64,000 bases of DNA from the NCBI RefSeq assembly GCF_010119205.1, contig NZ_WRXM01000001.1, positions 1,426,001 to 1,490,000 on the forward strand, read 5' to 3'. The notes below the pieces were generated by a model, which was not told the DNA's origin, ran no database searches, and saw only the letters and a program-made list of their open reading frames with translations. Below are positions 47,311-52,936 of this stretch, one piece after another (position 1 is the first letter of the stretch; every line of letters starts with the position of its first letter). The position numbers were made by a program, and so were the translations under genes. Origin of the DNA: Haloarcula limicola. GTDB taxonomy: Archaea > Halobacteriota > Halobacteria > Halobacteriales > Haloarculaceae.

Positions 47311-47413
47311 ATGACTGACCGTTCACAGTATCCCCGCTGAAAACGCAGATCGTGTGGCAACTACCGGATTGTATTCGTAAGTGATACCTAGGGGTGTGCC
47401 CTCGCCTCGGATA

Positions 47414-47812
47414 ATGGACGGCGAACGCGGCCGCAGAGAGATAGAGAGGGTATTGGCCGACCGGCGGCGGCGCTACCTGCTTTACTGCCTCCACCTCCAC
47501 TCGACGCCGCAGCCCCTCCCCGATATCGCGGATCAGGTCACGGTCTGGGAGACCAGTGACCCGGCGACCGAGCGCCTCGACGAGCGGCTGGAGATCTACC
47601 TGTCGCTCTATCACGATCACCTCCCGGAGCTCGTCGAAGCCGGCGTCGTGACGTATCGGCAGACCGAGGACGACGTGGACTGGGACGGGCGCGTCACCCC
47701 GGAACGGCTCGACTCGCGCCTCGAACGCCGACTGTGCGAGGAACTCGACGCGCTGCTGGACGCCGAGACCTGTACGTTCGACTGCGACGACGGCGGGGAC
47801 ATAGAGCCGTGA
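47414..47812 (+). CDS. DUF7344-like winged-helix protein
   Basis: The 132-residue protein starts MDGERGRREIERVLADRRRRYLLYCLHLHSTPQPLPDIADQVTVWE, the pattern of haloarchaeal DUF7344 helix-turn-helix domains: an opening helix with RRRYLLYCL, a second helix PDIADQV, and a recognition helix with LDERLEIYLSLYHDHLPELVEAGVVTY. Proteins of this group are assumed to be transcription factors. The C-terminus adds about 45 residues with CDDGGD. The gene precedes eIF1 by 38 bases on the same strand. Confidence 0.7.
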   Translation: MDGERGRREIERVLADRRRRYLLYCLHLHSTPQPLPDIADQVTVWETSDPATERLDERLEIYLSLYHDHLPELVEAGVVTYRQTEDDVDWDGRVTPERLDSRLERRLCEELDALLDAETCTFDCDDGGDIEP

Positions 47813-47850: not shown

Positions 47851-48141
47851 GTGTCAGACGAAGACCCGTTCGACGACCTCGACATCCCGGAAGACCCGAC
47901 GGCGGACCTCGACCGCGCGACGCAGCGGCTCACGGTCCGCACGGAGGAGCGCCGCTACGGCAAGAAGATGGTGCTCGTCGAGGGGTTCGAAGACGAGGGC
48001 GACGTTCAGGACCTCGCCTCGGACCTGAAGTCCTCGCTCGGCACCGGCGGAACCGTCAAAGACGGACGCATCGAGCTGCAGGGCGACCACGCGGAGCGCG
48101 TCCGGGACCTCCTCGAATCGAAGGGGTACCAGATAGCCTGA
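47851..48141 (+). CDS. Translation initiation factor eIF1 (SUI1)
   Basis: The 96-residue protein has the SUI1 fold and key segments: ATQRLTVRTEERRYGKKMVLVEGFEDEG, then LASDLKSSLGTGGTVKDGRIELQGDHAERVRDLLESKGYQI, with the Gly-rich GTGGTVKDG loop typical of eIF1/SUI1. It binds the small ribosomal subunit and helps select the start codon. GTG at 47851 gives MSDEDPFDDLD, and the upstream longer frame overlaps the DUF7344 gene and is implausible. Its 3' end faces the orc1 gene across the ORB array. Confidence 0.92.
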   Translation: MSDEDPFDDLDIPEDPTADLDRATQRLTVRTEERRYGKKMVLVEGFEDEGDVQDLASDLKSSLGTGGTVKDGRIELQGDHAERVRDLLESKGYQIA

Positions 48142-48198
48142 CAGCCGACCGGTAGCCTCTCGAGAAGTGCGATACAGCGGACGAGCCTTCGCGATTCG

Positions 48199-48345
48199 TA
48201 ACAGCGGAAGCGGTGGGGTAGAAAGTCAGTAACAGCGGAAGCGGTGGGGTCGTGAGAGTGTCACTAACGCCGGGACCAGTGGGTCGAGACGTACGCCGGA
48301 ACCGGTGGGGCCACGAAGCCGGCGTTACCATCGGCGTCAGTGGGT
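48199..48345 (+). repeat. Array of five direct ORB-like repeats between eIF1 and orc1
   Basis: Two identical 21-base copies (TAACAGCGGAAGCGGTGGGG plus T) at 48199-48219 and 48230-48250 are followed by weaker copies at 48265-48284, 48292-48310 and 48326-48345. All point the same way, with the G-rich end on the right. Start-to-start spacings are 31, 35, 27 and 34 bases, about three helical turns. The last copy touches the orc1 stop codon. The same core occurs on the other side of orc1, so these are Orc1/Cdc6 binding sites. Confidence 0.85.
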
Positions 48346-49532
48346 CAGGGCGTCGTCTCGAGGAGTTCGGATAACCCGGTCTTCACCGACGAGATGGACT
48401 GCTCGAGTTCGTGCTCTTTGTACTTGCCCCCGCCTTTGCCGCGGTTGTACTCAGTCGAGGAGATGATGCCGAGCTGATCGAGTTCGCCCAGGTAATCGCG
48501 AACGGACCGTTCCGAGACGGGGTCGACGCCCTCCTCGATGGCGACTCGTTCGTACGCGCTGAGGATGTCCTTCGTTCGCGCGGGCGTGTCGCCCCGTTCG
48601 GCGAGCAGCGTCACCGCGTAGAGGACGAACTGACCGTGGTTGGAGTAGTTCCGAATCCCCTCGACGACCTGGTCCGTCTGGAGGCGCTGTCGGGCGCGAC
48701 GGACGTGCGACTCCGTGACGAGCTCCCCGTTGTTCTCGCGGGCCAAGTCGCCGGCCTCAAGTAGCAGGTCCAGCGCCTGCCGGGCGTCCCCGGAGTCCTT
48801 CGCGCCGTAGGCCGCGCACATCTCGACGACGCCGTCGTCCAGCACGTCGTCTCTGAACGCCACGGCCTCGCGCTGCTGGAGCACCAGTTGCAGTTCTCGC
48901 GCGTCGTACGCCGAGAAGGAGACTTCCTTCTCGCAGAGGCTGGAGCGGACCTTCGAGGAGAGCTGGTTGCGGAAATCGAGGTCGTTCGAGATCCCGATCA
49001 CGCCGAGTTTGGCGTCGGTGACGTCGCCGTTGGAGCGGGCGCGCGGCAGTTTGTAGAGCAGCGAGTCGTCCCGGATGTGATCGACCTCGTCCAGGACGAT
49101 CAAGACGGTTCCCCCCACCCGGTCGAGTTCGTCGAACAGGAACTGGTAGACGGACGCCTGCGGGTAGCCGGTGTTGGAGATCTGGTCGGCCGGGTCCCGG
49201 AGTTCGTTGACCAGCGCGACGGCGACCTGATAGCTCGAGTTGAGCCCGTCGCAGTTGATCTCGATCGTGTGGAGGTCCAGTTCCGGGACCGGTTCGGCGT
49301 CGCGTTCGAGCGCCTGGAGGAGATAGCGCGTGGCGGCGGTCTTGCCGACGCCGCTCTTCCCGTACAGAAAGATGTTCGAGGGGCTCTCGCCGTTGATCAC
49401 CGGCTGGAGCGCCGCGTGGAACCGTTCGAGTTCCTCGTCGCGGCCGACGAGTTCGTCGGGCGTCCACTCCTCTAAGAGGGCCTCTCGCCGCTCGAAGATC
49501 GCAGACGTCGGTGAGAAGGTGATATCCGTCAT
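48345..49532 (-). CDS. orc1: Orc1/Cdc6 replication initiator
   Basis: The 395-residue protein has an AAA+ ATPase domain with Walker A GKSGVGKTA (58-66) and Walker B VLIVLDEVDH (around 143-152), a sensor-1 stretch LGVIGISNDLDF, and a C-terminal winged-helix domain (about 300-395). These are the features of archaeal Orc1/Cdc6, which binds ORB sites, melts the origin and loads MCM. The AT-rich leader carries a TATA box (complement of 49600-49608), and an ORB (49613-49633) sits right next to it, so it may regulate its own expression. It is flanked by ORBs on both sides. Confidence 0.96.
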   Translation of the reverse strand: MTDITFSPTSAIFERREALLEEWTPDELVGRDEELERFHAALQPVINGESPSNIFLYGKSGVGKTAATRYLLQALERDAEPVPELDLHTIEINCDGLNSSYQVAVALVNELRDPADQISNTGYPQASVYQFLFDELDRVGGTVLIVLDEVDHIRDDSLLYKLPRARSNGDVTDAKLGVIGISNDLDFRNQLSSKVRSSLCEKEVSFSAYDARELQLVLQQREAVAFRDDVLDDGVVEMCAAYGAKDSGDARQALDLLLEAGDLARENNGELVTESHVRRARQRLQTDQVVEGIRNYSNHGQFVLYAVTLLAERGDTPARTKDILSAYERVAIEEGVDPVSERSVRDYLGELDQLGIISSTEYNRGKGGGKYKEHELEQSISSVKTGLSELLETTP

Positions 49533-49599
49533 CCACCACAGGGTGAGCGGCGTAGCTGTATTAACCTTCGGTTCCGCTGTTTCCGTTGTTACTCTTGTC

Positions 49600-49608
49600 T
49601 TATATATG
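49600..49608 (-). promoter_or_regulatory. TATA box of orc1
   Basis: On the minus strand the segment reads CATATATAAG, a strong archaeal TATA element, about 68-76 bases before the orc1 ATG, giving a leader of roughly 45 bases. ORB sites lie immediately on both sides of it. Confidence 0.6.
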
Positions 49609-49612
49609 ACCG

Positions 49613-49633
49613 ACCCCACCACTTCCGCTGTTA
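49613..49633 (-). repeat. ORB site next to the orc1 TATA box
   Basis: Read on the minus strand it is TAACAGCGGAAGTGGTGGGG followed by T, differing by one base from the two array copies beyond the orc1 stop. It begins five bases from the TATA element, so Orc1 binding there could repress its own promoter. Confidence 0.8.
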
Positions 49634-49687
49634 GTGGGTTGACAGGGCGTACGTCGCGAGAGAGCGAGGGAAAGTCGGCACACACCC

Positions 49688-49708
49688 ACCCCACCACTTC
49701 CGCTGTTA
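49688..49708 (-). repeat. ORB site, left arm of the inverted origin pair
   Basis: On the minus strand it is identical over 21 bases to the copy at 49613-49633, and begins 75 bases from it. Its G-rich end points away from the AT-richer stretch, mirroring the plus-strand copy at 49864. Confidence 0.8.
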
Positions 49709-49828
49709 GCGGGAACGGAGGCGGTATCCGGAATCGGCTCGCAGCCGGCTATGTTTTCGTGTCGAATAGGTAAGTTCAAGTGACTGCTTTAGAAACGATA
49801 TCCGTACGTCGTTCTCCACTGAACGATG

Positions 49829-49845
49829 CCACCCCACAGGGGTGG
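49829..49845. repeat. Half-ORB hairpin inside the origin
   Basis: CCACCCC-ACA-GGGGTGG is a perfect 7-base-arm inverted repeat. Each arm matches the G-rich end of an ORB, so it may be two head-to-head half sites or a G-rich element. It lies 19 bases before the plus-strand ORB. Confidence 0.6.
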
Positions 49846-49863
49846 GGTTACTCGTTCCCTCCC

Positions 49864-49884
49864 TAACAGCGGAACCAGTGGGGT
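49864..49884 (+). repeat. ORB site, right arm of the inverted origin pair
   Basis: TAACAGCGGAACCAGTGGGG followed by T matches the ORB consensus of this locus. With the minus-strand copy at 49688-49708 it brackets about 155 bases including the AT-richer stretch. Confidence 0.8.
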
Positions 49885-50087
49885 GGGAGGGTGGTCCGTC
49901 ACCTAATTCTGTCACCGGTGCTCGCCTACTACCGGGCGGCCGAATGGACGGGCACAGACCAGATCGCGCCTGACCGAGTGCGAGAGTCGTCACGACGCGC
50001 GACGCTACCGATGCTCGGCGTGAGTCCGACCGTCGGCGCGAAGGAATCAGCGCGGCTCGGCCGAGCCGCGCTCGAACGAGACCCGCG

Positions 50088-52784
50088 TCACGCCTCGTCG
50101 AGTTCCTCTTGCCACTGTTGGACCGTCGCCATCAGTTCGACGGGCGGGGTCTCGTTGACGTCGAGGTCCCGTAACTCGTCGAGAACTGACCGTGTCTCGG
50201 CGTCGATGGCCGCCTCGGCCGATTCGTCGGCGGCGGCCGCCTCCGGACTCCCGTCGGTCTCGACTCGCTGTGTCTCCCCGCCGGGAGCGAACTGCCCCGA
50301 CCCCAGGTCGAAGACGGCCTGCGTGGTCCCGGCGTCGCCGGCCGCGTCGCTCCCCCGGACCTCGATGGCCTTGTCCTCGCGCAGGCGGTCGAGCACCTGC
50401 CGTGAGCGGGCGACGACCGGGTCGGGGATCCCCGCCAGATCGGCGACGTGGACGCCGTAGGAGCGGTCGGTCGGACCGTCCCGCACCGTCCGCAGGAAGG
50501 TCACGTCGCCGTCGGTCTCGTCGGCGGCGACGTGGACGTTCTGGACGGTCGGCAGCTCCTCGCCCAGCGCCGTCAGCTCGTGGTAGTGGGTGGCAAAGAG
50601 CGTCTTCGATCCGAGCGTGTTGACGACGTACTCCGTCGCCGCCCACGCGATGGAGATGCCGTCGAACGTCGCCGTCCCGCGGCCCACCTCGTCTAAGATT
50701 ATCAGCGAGTCCTCGGTCGCCGAGTGGAGGATGTTCGACAGCTCCTGCATCTCGACCATGAACGTCGAGCGGCCCTGTGCGAGTTCGTCCAGGGCCCCGA
50801 CGCGGGTGTAGATGCCGTCGACGAGGCCGACGGTCGCCGCTCGCGCGGGGACGAAACTGCCGGTCTGGGCCAGCAGCGTGATCAGCGCCGCCTGTCGCAT
50901 GTACGTGGATTTGCCGCTCATGTTCGGCCCGGTGACGACGAGGAACCGCCGGTCGCGGTCCAGGTGGAGGTCGTTGGGGACGAACTCGGTGGTCTGCTCG
51001 ACGACCGGGTGTCGGCCGGCCTCGATGGCGAGTTCGTCGCCCTCGGTGACCTCGGGGCGCGTCCAGTCGTTCTCGACGGCGTGGACGGCGAACGAGGCCA
51101 GCGCGTCCACCTCGGCGAGCGCTCGGCCCACGTCCTGCATGAGCGTCGCGCGCTCGGCGACGCGCGCTCTGAGGTCCTCGAACAGGTCGCGCTCCATCTC
51201 GTGGCGGCGCTCCTCCAGACGGAGGACGTCCCGTTCCTTCTCGTCGAGTTCGGGGATGGTGTAGCGTTTCGAGTTCTTCAGCGTCTTTATCTGCTCGTAC
51301 TCGTCGGGGACGTCGCCGGTCTCGCTCTTCCCCACCTGGATGTAGTAGCCGTCGGTCTTGTTGCGGTCCACCGAGAGGTGGGTGATGCCGGTGCGCTCTT
51401 TCTCCCGCTCCGGCAGCGTCTCCAGCCACGAGAGCGCCCCCTCGTGTTCGTCGATGAGTTCGTCCAGCTCGTCGTCGTACCCCCGGCGGAAGAGCCCGCC
51501 CTGCGTGACGGTGCCGGGCGGGTCCTCGACGAGCGCCTCGTCCAGTTCCGCAGCGAGAGAGGCGGCGGCCTCGCGGTCGGCCCCCGAGAGCGCGTCGGCG
51601 AGCGGCGAGTCGGCCAGCCGCTCGGTCTCGGCGACCGCGTCGGCGACCTCGGAGAGGAGCGCGAGCGTCTCCTGTGCCGCCCGCAGGTCGCGGGCGTCGG
51701 CGCTCCCCGAGGTCGCCCGCGACGCCAGCCGTTCGAGGTCGTAGGCCGCGGAGAGCGTCTCCCGGATCGCCTCGCGGGCCATCGCTTCGCGGGCCAGCGC
51801 CGCCACGGAGGACTGCCGACGCCGGAGTTCCCCCCGGTCTCGGCGCGGTCGCTGGAGCCACCGCCGGAGGAGTCGCCCGCCGGCGGCCGTGACGGTGTGG
51901 TCGACGGTGTCGAACAGCGACCCCGAACTGTCGCCCTGCATCGTCTCGGTGAGTTCGAGGTTGCGCTGGGTCGTCGCGTCCAGCGCGACGTGTTCGCGCG
52001 CGCCGTAGACCTGCAGCCGCGTGACCGCCGCGAGCGTCCCGACGCCCGTCTCCTCGACGTAGGAGAGCACCGCCCCGGCGGCGGCGATGGCGGCTTCGTC
52101 CCCCTCGATACCGACGCTCTCCAGGGTCTCCGCGCCGAACTGCTCGCGCACCCGGTGGCGGGCGCGACCCGGTTCGAACGACTCGGTGGCGTGGAGGGTG
52201 AGCGCGGCGTCGGAGCGCTCCCGGAGCCGCTCTAGGAAGTCGTCGTCGTTCCGGAGGTCGGGGCCGGGCAGGACCTCCGCCGGCGCGAACGTGTACAGTT
52301 CCGAGAGCACCGAAGCGGGGTCGGCGCCGTCGAGTTGCGTCACCTGAAATCGGCCCGTCGTCACGTCGGCGAAGGCCAGCCCGTAGGTGTCGCCCTCGCC
52401 GCGGGACGTCTGTCGGACCAGCGCCGCGAGATACCGGGCGCTGGCGTCGCTGCTCTCCAGATGGGTCCCGGGCGTCACGACCCGCGTTATCTCGCGGGCG
52501 TGACCGTCGGCCGTCTCGTGTTGGTCCGCGACGGCGACCCGATAGCCGCGTTCGACCAGCGCGGAGACGTACGGCGTCAGGTCGTCCACCGGAACGCCGG
52601 CCATCGGATACGACGAGCCGTGCGAGGACTTCTGCGAGACCTTCAGGTCCAGTTCCTCGGCCACCCGCTCGGCGTCGTCCGCGAAGAACTCGTAGAAGTC
52701 ACCACACTGCATCGCCAGCAAGTCGGCGTCGGTCTCCTCCTTGAGCGAGAGGAACTCCCCGACGATGCCCGTCGCCTCTGTCAT
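50088..52784 (-). CDS. mutS: MutS, DNA mismatch recognition ATPase
   Basis: The 898-residue protein has the mismatch-binding N-terminal domain with CGDFYEFF (the Phe-x-Glu wedge, near residue 30), then connector, lever and clamp domains. The C-terminal ATPase has Walker A GPNMSGKST (around residue 620) and ILDEVGRGTATFDG. A C-terminal tail of about 90 residues ends in the small tetramerisation-like segment. It starts at 52784 (MTEATGIVGEF), excluding an unrelated upstream extension. It reads towards the origin, with MutL on the other side of orc1. Confidence 0.96.
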   Translation of the reverse strand: MTEATGIVGEFLSLKEETDADLLAMQCGDFYEFFADDAERVAEELDLKVSQKSSHGSSYPMAGVPVDDLTPYVSALVERGYRVAVADQHETADGHAREITRVVTPGTHLESSDASARYLAALVRQTSRGEGDTYGLAFADVTTGRFQVTQLDGADPASVLSELYTFAPAEVLPGPDLRNDDDFLERLRERSDAALTLHATESFEPGRARHRVREQFGAETLESVGIEGDEAAIAAAGAVLSYVEETGVGTLAAVTRLQVYGAREHVALDATTQRNLELTETMQGDSSGSLFDTVDHTVTAAGGRLLRRWLQRPRRDRGELRRRQSSVAALAREAMAREAIRETLSAAYDLERLASRATSGSADARDLRAAQETLALLSEVADAVAETERLADSPLADALSGADREAAASLAAELDEALVEDPPGTVTQGGLFRRGYDDELDELIDEHEGALSWLETLPEREKERTGITHLSVDRNKTDGYYIQVGKSETGDVPDEYEQIKTLKNSKRYTIPELDEKERDVLRLEERRHEMERDLFEDLRARVAERATLMQDVGRALAEVDALASFAVHAVENDWTRPEVTEGDELAIEAGRHPVVEQTTEFVPNDLHLDRDRRFLVVTGPNMSGKSTYMRQAALITLLAQTGSFVPARAATVGLVDGIYTRVGALDELAQGRSTFMVEMQELSNILHSATEDSLIILDEVGRGTATFDGISIAWAATEYVVNTLGSKTLFATHYHELTALGEELPTVQNVHVAADETDGDVTFLRTVRDGPTDRSYGVHVADLAGIPDPVVARSRQVLDRLREDKAIEVRGSDAAGDAGTTQAVFDLGSGQFAPGGETQRVETDGSPEAAAADESAEAAIDAETRSVLDELRDLDVNETPPVELMATVQQWQEELDEA

Positions 52785-52936
52785 AGCCCACCCTCTGTCC
52801 GTCCTCGGCGTAAGGATTGCGGGAGCGCGGCGGGCGGCCACGGGGCGGGCGGCGACTCCCTCGGGGGACCCCGGCGATGGATTACGTTCAGTATAACCGG
52901 ACAATTATATGAACCGGGGGCCGTTAAGAGGTCACA

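Follow-up and report, generated by a model that had tools for sequence, protein, structure and literature searches.

How initiation is limited in archaeal cells that carry several origins is poorly understood. The locus described here raises a related question, namely, what origin recognition boxes (ORBs) are doing on the far side of an initiator gene. In a 64,000-nucleotide stretch of the Haloarcula limicola genome (contig NZ_WRXM01000001.1; hereafter the window), ORBs lie both upstream of an orc1/cdc6 gene and beyond its stop codon. An initial annotation of the sequence implied that two-sided arrangements of this kind are rare; in fact, they are documented for about ten haloarchaeal orc/cdc6 genes (PMC3528665), and three further orc genes of this genome have them (loci L018, L019 and L021, on contigs C6, C4 and C3), with ORBs of different sequences on both sides of the gene and at least seven downstream copies in the case of C3. 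The layout is typical and already known from related haloarchaea. What is added here is an extended G-string rule, which sets sites that probably fire apart from sites that probably act as decoys.

Layout of the cassette

The initiator gene (48345–49532, minus strand; ATG at 49532, TGA at 48345–48347) encodes a protein of 395 aa that matches profile TIGR02928 (E 8.8e-127) and the Pfam domains Cdc6_lid, Cdc6_C and AAA_16. Ortholog alignments begin at residue 1. With its AAA+ domain, lid and C-terminal winged helix, and a length above 300 aa, Orc1 is of the kind expected at an origin. The gene is part of a cassette (48142–50087) bordered by two convergent genes, sui1 (SUI1/YciH-family translation factor; 47854–48141, plus strand; profile and Pfam match) and mutS (50088–52787, minus strand; profile match). 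A gene for a 143-aa DUF7344 protein (window 47381–47812) adjoins sui1, and the same neighbour is found in H. amylovorans, the nearest relative. Read in the orientation of orc1, the elements of the cassette are the distal core ORB, about 155 bp that include the most AT-rich stretch, the proximal core ORB, the promoter ORB, the TATA box, tandem half-ORBs at the expected transcription start, orc1 itself and the downstream array.

The ORB is a 21-bp sequence with the consensus TAACAGCGGAA[GC][CT][GA]GTGGGGT. A search of the whole 3.9-Mb genome, allowing up to three mismatches, returned exactly five sites, all of them at the orc1 locus; a reversed control returned none. Three of these near-perfect ORBs are upstream of orc1 (49613(-), 49688(-) and 49864(+)) and two are downstream (48199(+) and 48230(+)). 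The downstream copies were scored with a matrix built from the three upstream ORBs only. Copies 1 and 2 (48199–48219 and 48230–48250), which are identical, each score 32.7; copies 3 (48265–48285) and 4 (48291–48311) are degenerate yet above chance, with scores of 12.6 and 11.5 for which 0.002 and 0.003 occurrences are expected in the 206-bp gap; copy 5 (48326–48346), which overlaps the orc1 stop codon, is marginal when taken alone (6.3), and its counterpart in H. amylovorans is better preserved (TAACATCGGAACCCGTGGGGT at +3). All copies are on the plus strand and in register, and there is no inverted ORB pair among them.

Genome-wide search and upstream-only matrix thus agree with the initial annotation that ORBs flank orc1 on both sides and that five direct copies, progressively degenerate, lie downstream, the fifth being marginal and the decay running towards orc1. 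The spacings between copies had been given as 31, 35, 27 and 34 bases and read as helical turns indicative of cooperative binding. Measured start to start, they are 31, 35, 26 and 35 bp, that is, 2.95, 3.33, 2.48 and 3.33 turns, and helical phasing is rejected: 45 spacings from nine related arrays depart little from uniformity (Rayleigh p = 0.37 for all spacings, 0.13 for short ones).

The core, upstream of orc1, consists of two divergent ORBs, about 180 bp apart, each of which runs into an extended G-string. The gene-proximal arm occupies 49681–49708 (minus strand, with the 21-bp box at 49688; GGGTGTG) and the distal arm 49864–49891 (plus strand; GGGAGGG); inverted ORBs with G-strings, a hallmark of an origin, are thereby found adjoining the gene. 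The earlier assignment of an orc1-associated origin is supported, as is that of an upstream inverted pair with additional copies (49613(-) and weak half-copies at 49561–49591). The probable unwinding region, assigned by reference to known oriC anatomy, lies between the two arms (49709–49863). Its best 40 bp are 65% AT, compared with 33% for the window, and constitute the AT-rich element expected of an origin; this AT richness is among the lowest of the orthologs, along with that of loci L044 and L048. Just inside the distal core ORB is a G-rich inverted repeat, CCACCCC-ACA-GGGGTGG (49829–49845), reminiscent of the one, likewise G-rich, that acts as an enhancer of oriC1 in H. hispanica; Haloarcula orthologs have a related G-rich motif at the equivalent position. 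GC, AT and keto skews over 800 kb of contig C1 amounted to noise, with no clear inflection around the locus.

The orc1 promoter has its own boxes. A TATA box (49600–49607, minus strand), recognized by its sequence and at a position conserved in orthologs, is directly preceded by the promoter ORB (49613–49633, minus strand), of which 25 of 27 orthologous loci have a counterpart. Lying between the TATA box and the ATG, in the probable transcription start region, is a tandem half-ORB element (ACAnCGGAAnCAnCGGAAcCnAAGGTTAA; 49561–49591, minus strand) that is conserved in the 14 aligned orthologs, to a protein identity as low as about 74%. Few noncoding features of the ortholog alignment are as well conserved as these two, the promoter ORB and the half-ORB element. 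Their presence at the promoter suggests autoregulation, with the pair as a candidate operator. A search of mostly open-access literature found no direct report of Orc autoregulation via ORBs in haloarchaeal promoters.

Two classes of ORB

In order to compare the boxes across loci, core ORBs were defined by geometry alone, as neighbouring divergent ORBs 120–600 bp apart, and the extended G-string was scored as GGG directly after GTGGGGT. In the family of orthologs to which the window's locus belongs, 49 of 52 core ORBs and 33 of 36 other upstream ORBs have the extended G-string; the 25 promoter and 77 downstream ORBs (satellites) all lack it. Dereplication leaves the picture unchanged (core, 20/22; other upstream, 9/10; promoter, 0/10; downstream, 0/32). 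The difference between core and downstream ORBs is highly significant (Fisher's test, 2e-32; after dereplication, 7e-13), bearing in mind that neither loci nor tandem copies are independent. Base composition alone predicts GGG in about four of the 102 satellites, where none was observed; lack of selection, rather than avoidance, could explain this absence. In the window, the promoter ORB and downstream copies 1 and 2 accordingly lack the extension. The absence from all 77 downstream ORBs, 76 of which share one orientation, also supports the initial annotation in placing the distal array outside the core.

The division extends beyond this family. By inspection, the sister cdc6K family has the extended G-string in about 11 of 12 core ORBs (with one extended core pair) as against 2 of 42 satellites, and in the satellites the G-string itself is often broken to GTGGTG. 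The two-class pattern is clear in two further cases, the orc gene at 151 kb on the H. hispanica minichromosome and the C3 orc gene of this genome; oriC2 and the C6 orc gene give a mixed picture and the C4 orc gene lacks the pattern, which rules out a universal rule.

In H. hispanica, oriC1 loses its function when either extended G-string is mutated (PMC3936714). Together with the distribution described above, this leads us to infer that satellites bind Orc1 without supporting firing; downstream arrays, judged by their sequence, may thus bind initiator without supporting initiation. A broader statement, which we offer tentatively and hold at somewhat less than even strength, is that in several haloarchaeal replicator-initiator systems boxes with the extended G-string flank the unwinding region and would support initiation, while G-less boxes, at the promoter and downstream, would bind but be unable to fire, and would serve as decoys and autoregulatory operators.

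Orthologs, relatives and an empty site

Orthologous loci, with Orc proteins 70–97% identical, were compared by scanning their flanks for ORBs. Each of the 19 Haloarcula loci examined has downstream ORBs, one to nine in number, the first usually 2–3 bp past the stop codon, and the core pair is spaced 176–197 bp apart in most orthologous loci. In every pair of orthologs compared, downstream ORBs are more conserved than the spacers around them (82–95% identity versus 47–71%), which shows that the sites are maintained. The arrays nonetheless turn over, with five units in the window versus three in H. amylovorans. The related arrays run in one direction and have neither a set spacing nor a phase; variable copy number, uniform direction and free spacing are what is expected of a sink.

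More distant relatives depart from this arrangement. Six non-Haloarcula loci, from genera of Natrialbales and from Halalkalicoccus (L008, L009, L010, L012, L016 and L017), have the divergent core pair downstream of orc, with a spacing of about 180–197 bp, and mostly retain the promoter ORB; core and gene are therefore able to exchange sides. The Halosimplex pelagicum ortholog (L011/L054) has no downstream ORBs and, instead, five or six ORBs repeated in tandem upstream, at a period of exactly 32 bp.

In some genomes the cassette is missing from this site. In three of them (G018, G016 and G024) sui1 and mutS are adjacent, with 12 to 65 bp between the matched segments and no orc. Two of the three, G018 and G024, have the ortholog elsewhere, in G018 (Haloarcula marina) on a 364-kb plasmid. 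In G022 it resides on a 248-kb plasmid that has no other TIGR02928 gene, and in G015 on a large contig at a distance of 950 kb from mutS, hence at a different site; overall, orthologs are mostly plasmid-borne. According to a published model, extra chromosomal origins arise when plasmid-type replicator-initiator pairs integrate (PMC4010727, PMC4441112), and the empty site and the plasmid orthologs are consistent with it. A comparison of the cassette borders, made to look for att repeats or a target-site duplication, found no common word of 9 bp or more, and one inverted 8-mer that is likely due to chance. H. amylovorans shares the sui1 side, and its contig ends in an IS240-type DDE transposase gene (L006, 3–530) beside the distal core ORB.

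One of the closest characterized systems is on the minichromosome of H. hispanica. Orc1 is 85% identical to the Orc encoded there at 383 kb, which places the two in one family by the threshold of at least 80% used by Wu 2012. The H. hispanica minichromosome has orc genes at 0, 108, 151 and 383 kb, of which the one at 0 kb is truncated at the N-terminus and the one at 108 kb at the C-terminus. These truncations match the published defects of Cdc6G and Cdc6H, and from them and the gene order the 383-kb ortholog is expected to be Cdc6J. The oriC7-cdc6J locus replicates autonomously (ARS activity), and a double deletion of oriC6 and oriC7 is not possible (PMC3936714). On the assignment by gene order, oriC7-cdc6J (L048) shares with the window the same 21-bp ORB, the promoter ORB, the half-ORBs, a core pair (181 bp in H. 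hispanica) and two downstream ORBs. It differs in that it is on a minichromosome and has six full upstream ORBs, with the core about 570 bp upstream; the locus described here is between mutS and sui1 and has three upstream ORBs.

The ORB published for 'Origin II' of Hla_3512 and Hwa_HQ2959A (TAACAGCGGAAACAGTGGGGTGGGGGGGT; Wu et al. 2012, PMC3528665) matches the core ORBs, although those loci have two ORB types beside one orc gene, and there is one type here. Identity with oriC1 (cdc6A) is rejected because this genome encodes its oriC1 Orc elsewhere, at C2:916 kb (a protein 88.6% identical to that of H. hispanica). Identity with oriC2-cdc6E is likewise rejected: no Orc of this genome has Cdc6E as its best match, and a search for a Cdc6E ortholog at E<=1e-120 found no match in the genome.

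The downstream array and its possible role

The only experimental precedent for such an array is oriC2D of H. hispanica, a set of 11 downstream ORBs that was shown in 2013 to exert negative control over oriC2, probably via titration of Cdc6E. It has no origin activity, is undeletable unless oriC2 is removed and causes a dose-dependent drop in the copy number of oriC2 plasmids (Wu et al., PMC3936714). Both systems have an origin upstream of cdc6 and, right behind the gene, a unidirectional ORB array for which initiator titration is proposed; as at oriC2D, the cluster in the window has the sequence of the origin ORBs, with all copies on one strand and no inverted pair. The two differ in Orc family and ORB sequence, in array polarity relative to the gene, which is opposite, and in size, with 11 ORBs in 722 bp at oriC2D compared with two strong and two to three weak ones in about 150 bp here. 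The same source draws a parallel with datA of Escherichia coli, an initiator-box cluster that is no origin; if the titration model is right then datA is alike in role, although its sequence and protein (DnaA) are unrelated.

On the strength of the oriC2D precedent, titration is the best explanation of the downstream array: the extra ORBs beyond orc1 probably soak up initiator and restrain firing. Given that only two strong copies are left, the effect may be small. Of the two functions that the initial annotation had allowed, titration or enhancement, the first fits the precedent. The second, in which the array acts positively, as an enhancer or as an additional part of the origin with cooperative recruitment of Orc1, we consider improbable. 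Several Natrialbales orthologs do have their inverted core pair downstream of orc, and that side is thus able to host an origin; in the window, however, the downstream copies are all direct, without divergent partner, extended G-string or helical phasing, and oriC2D acts negatively. No better are the prospects of a decaying remnant without present function. Copies 3–5 are degenerate and copy number is unlike that of the nearest relative, but two copies are still perfect and ORBs are better conserved than spacers throughout the ortholog pairs.

Slightly more credible, while still unlikely, is that the array and the promoter ORB form a pair concerned with gene regulation, in which Orc1 bound at both ends of the gene would loop the DNA or block transcription that enters from convergent sui1, so that the array would influence orc1 expression instead of serving as a bulk sink. 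The promoter ORB and 76 of 77 downstream ORBs in the window's family point their G-strings at the gene, the promoter ORB sits directly next to the TATA box and the first downstream ORB is usually found immediately behind the stop codon. The orientation is not general, however: in oriC2D and at the C4 and C6 orc genes it is reversed, with downstream ORBs that face away from the gene. Moreover, chromosomal oriC2D acts in trans on an oriC2 plasmid, which local looping explains less simply than titration does.

We therefore return to titration as part of an explanation that, taken as a whole, we consider probable: a mobile, plasmid-type replicator-initiator cassette of the oriC7-cdc6J family, resident on the main chromosome, that constitutes a self-contained origin with its own initiator, the core serving initiation, the promoter self-repression and the downstream array as a sink. 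Orc1 would bind the two extended-G ORBs at 49681–49891 and unwind the AT-rich stretch between them, whereupon replication would start. ORBs without the extended G-string would be regulatory sites. At the promoter, the ORB beside the TATA box and the half-ORBs over the presumed transcription start would allow Orc1 to repress its own gene; behind the stop codon, the direct array would reduce free Orc1 and thereby restrain origin firing, much as oriC2D does for oriC2.

If the explanation is correct, then a simple sequence criterion – the presence or absence of an extended G-string – serves to predict whether an Orc1 site fires or does no more than sequester or repress. The empty mutS–sui1 site, in turn, documents a plasmid-type origin living in a haloarchaeal chromosome without oriC2.
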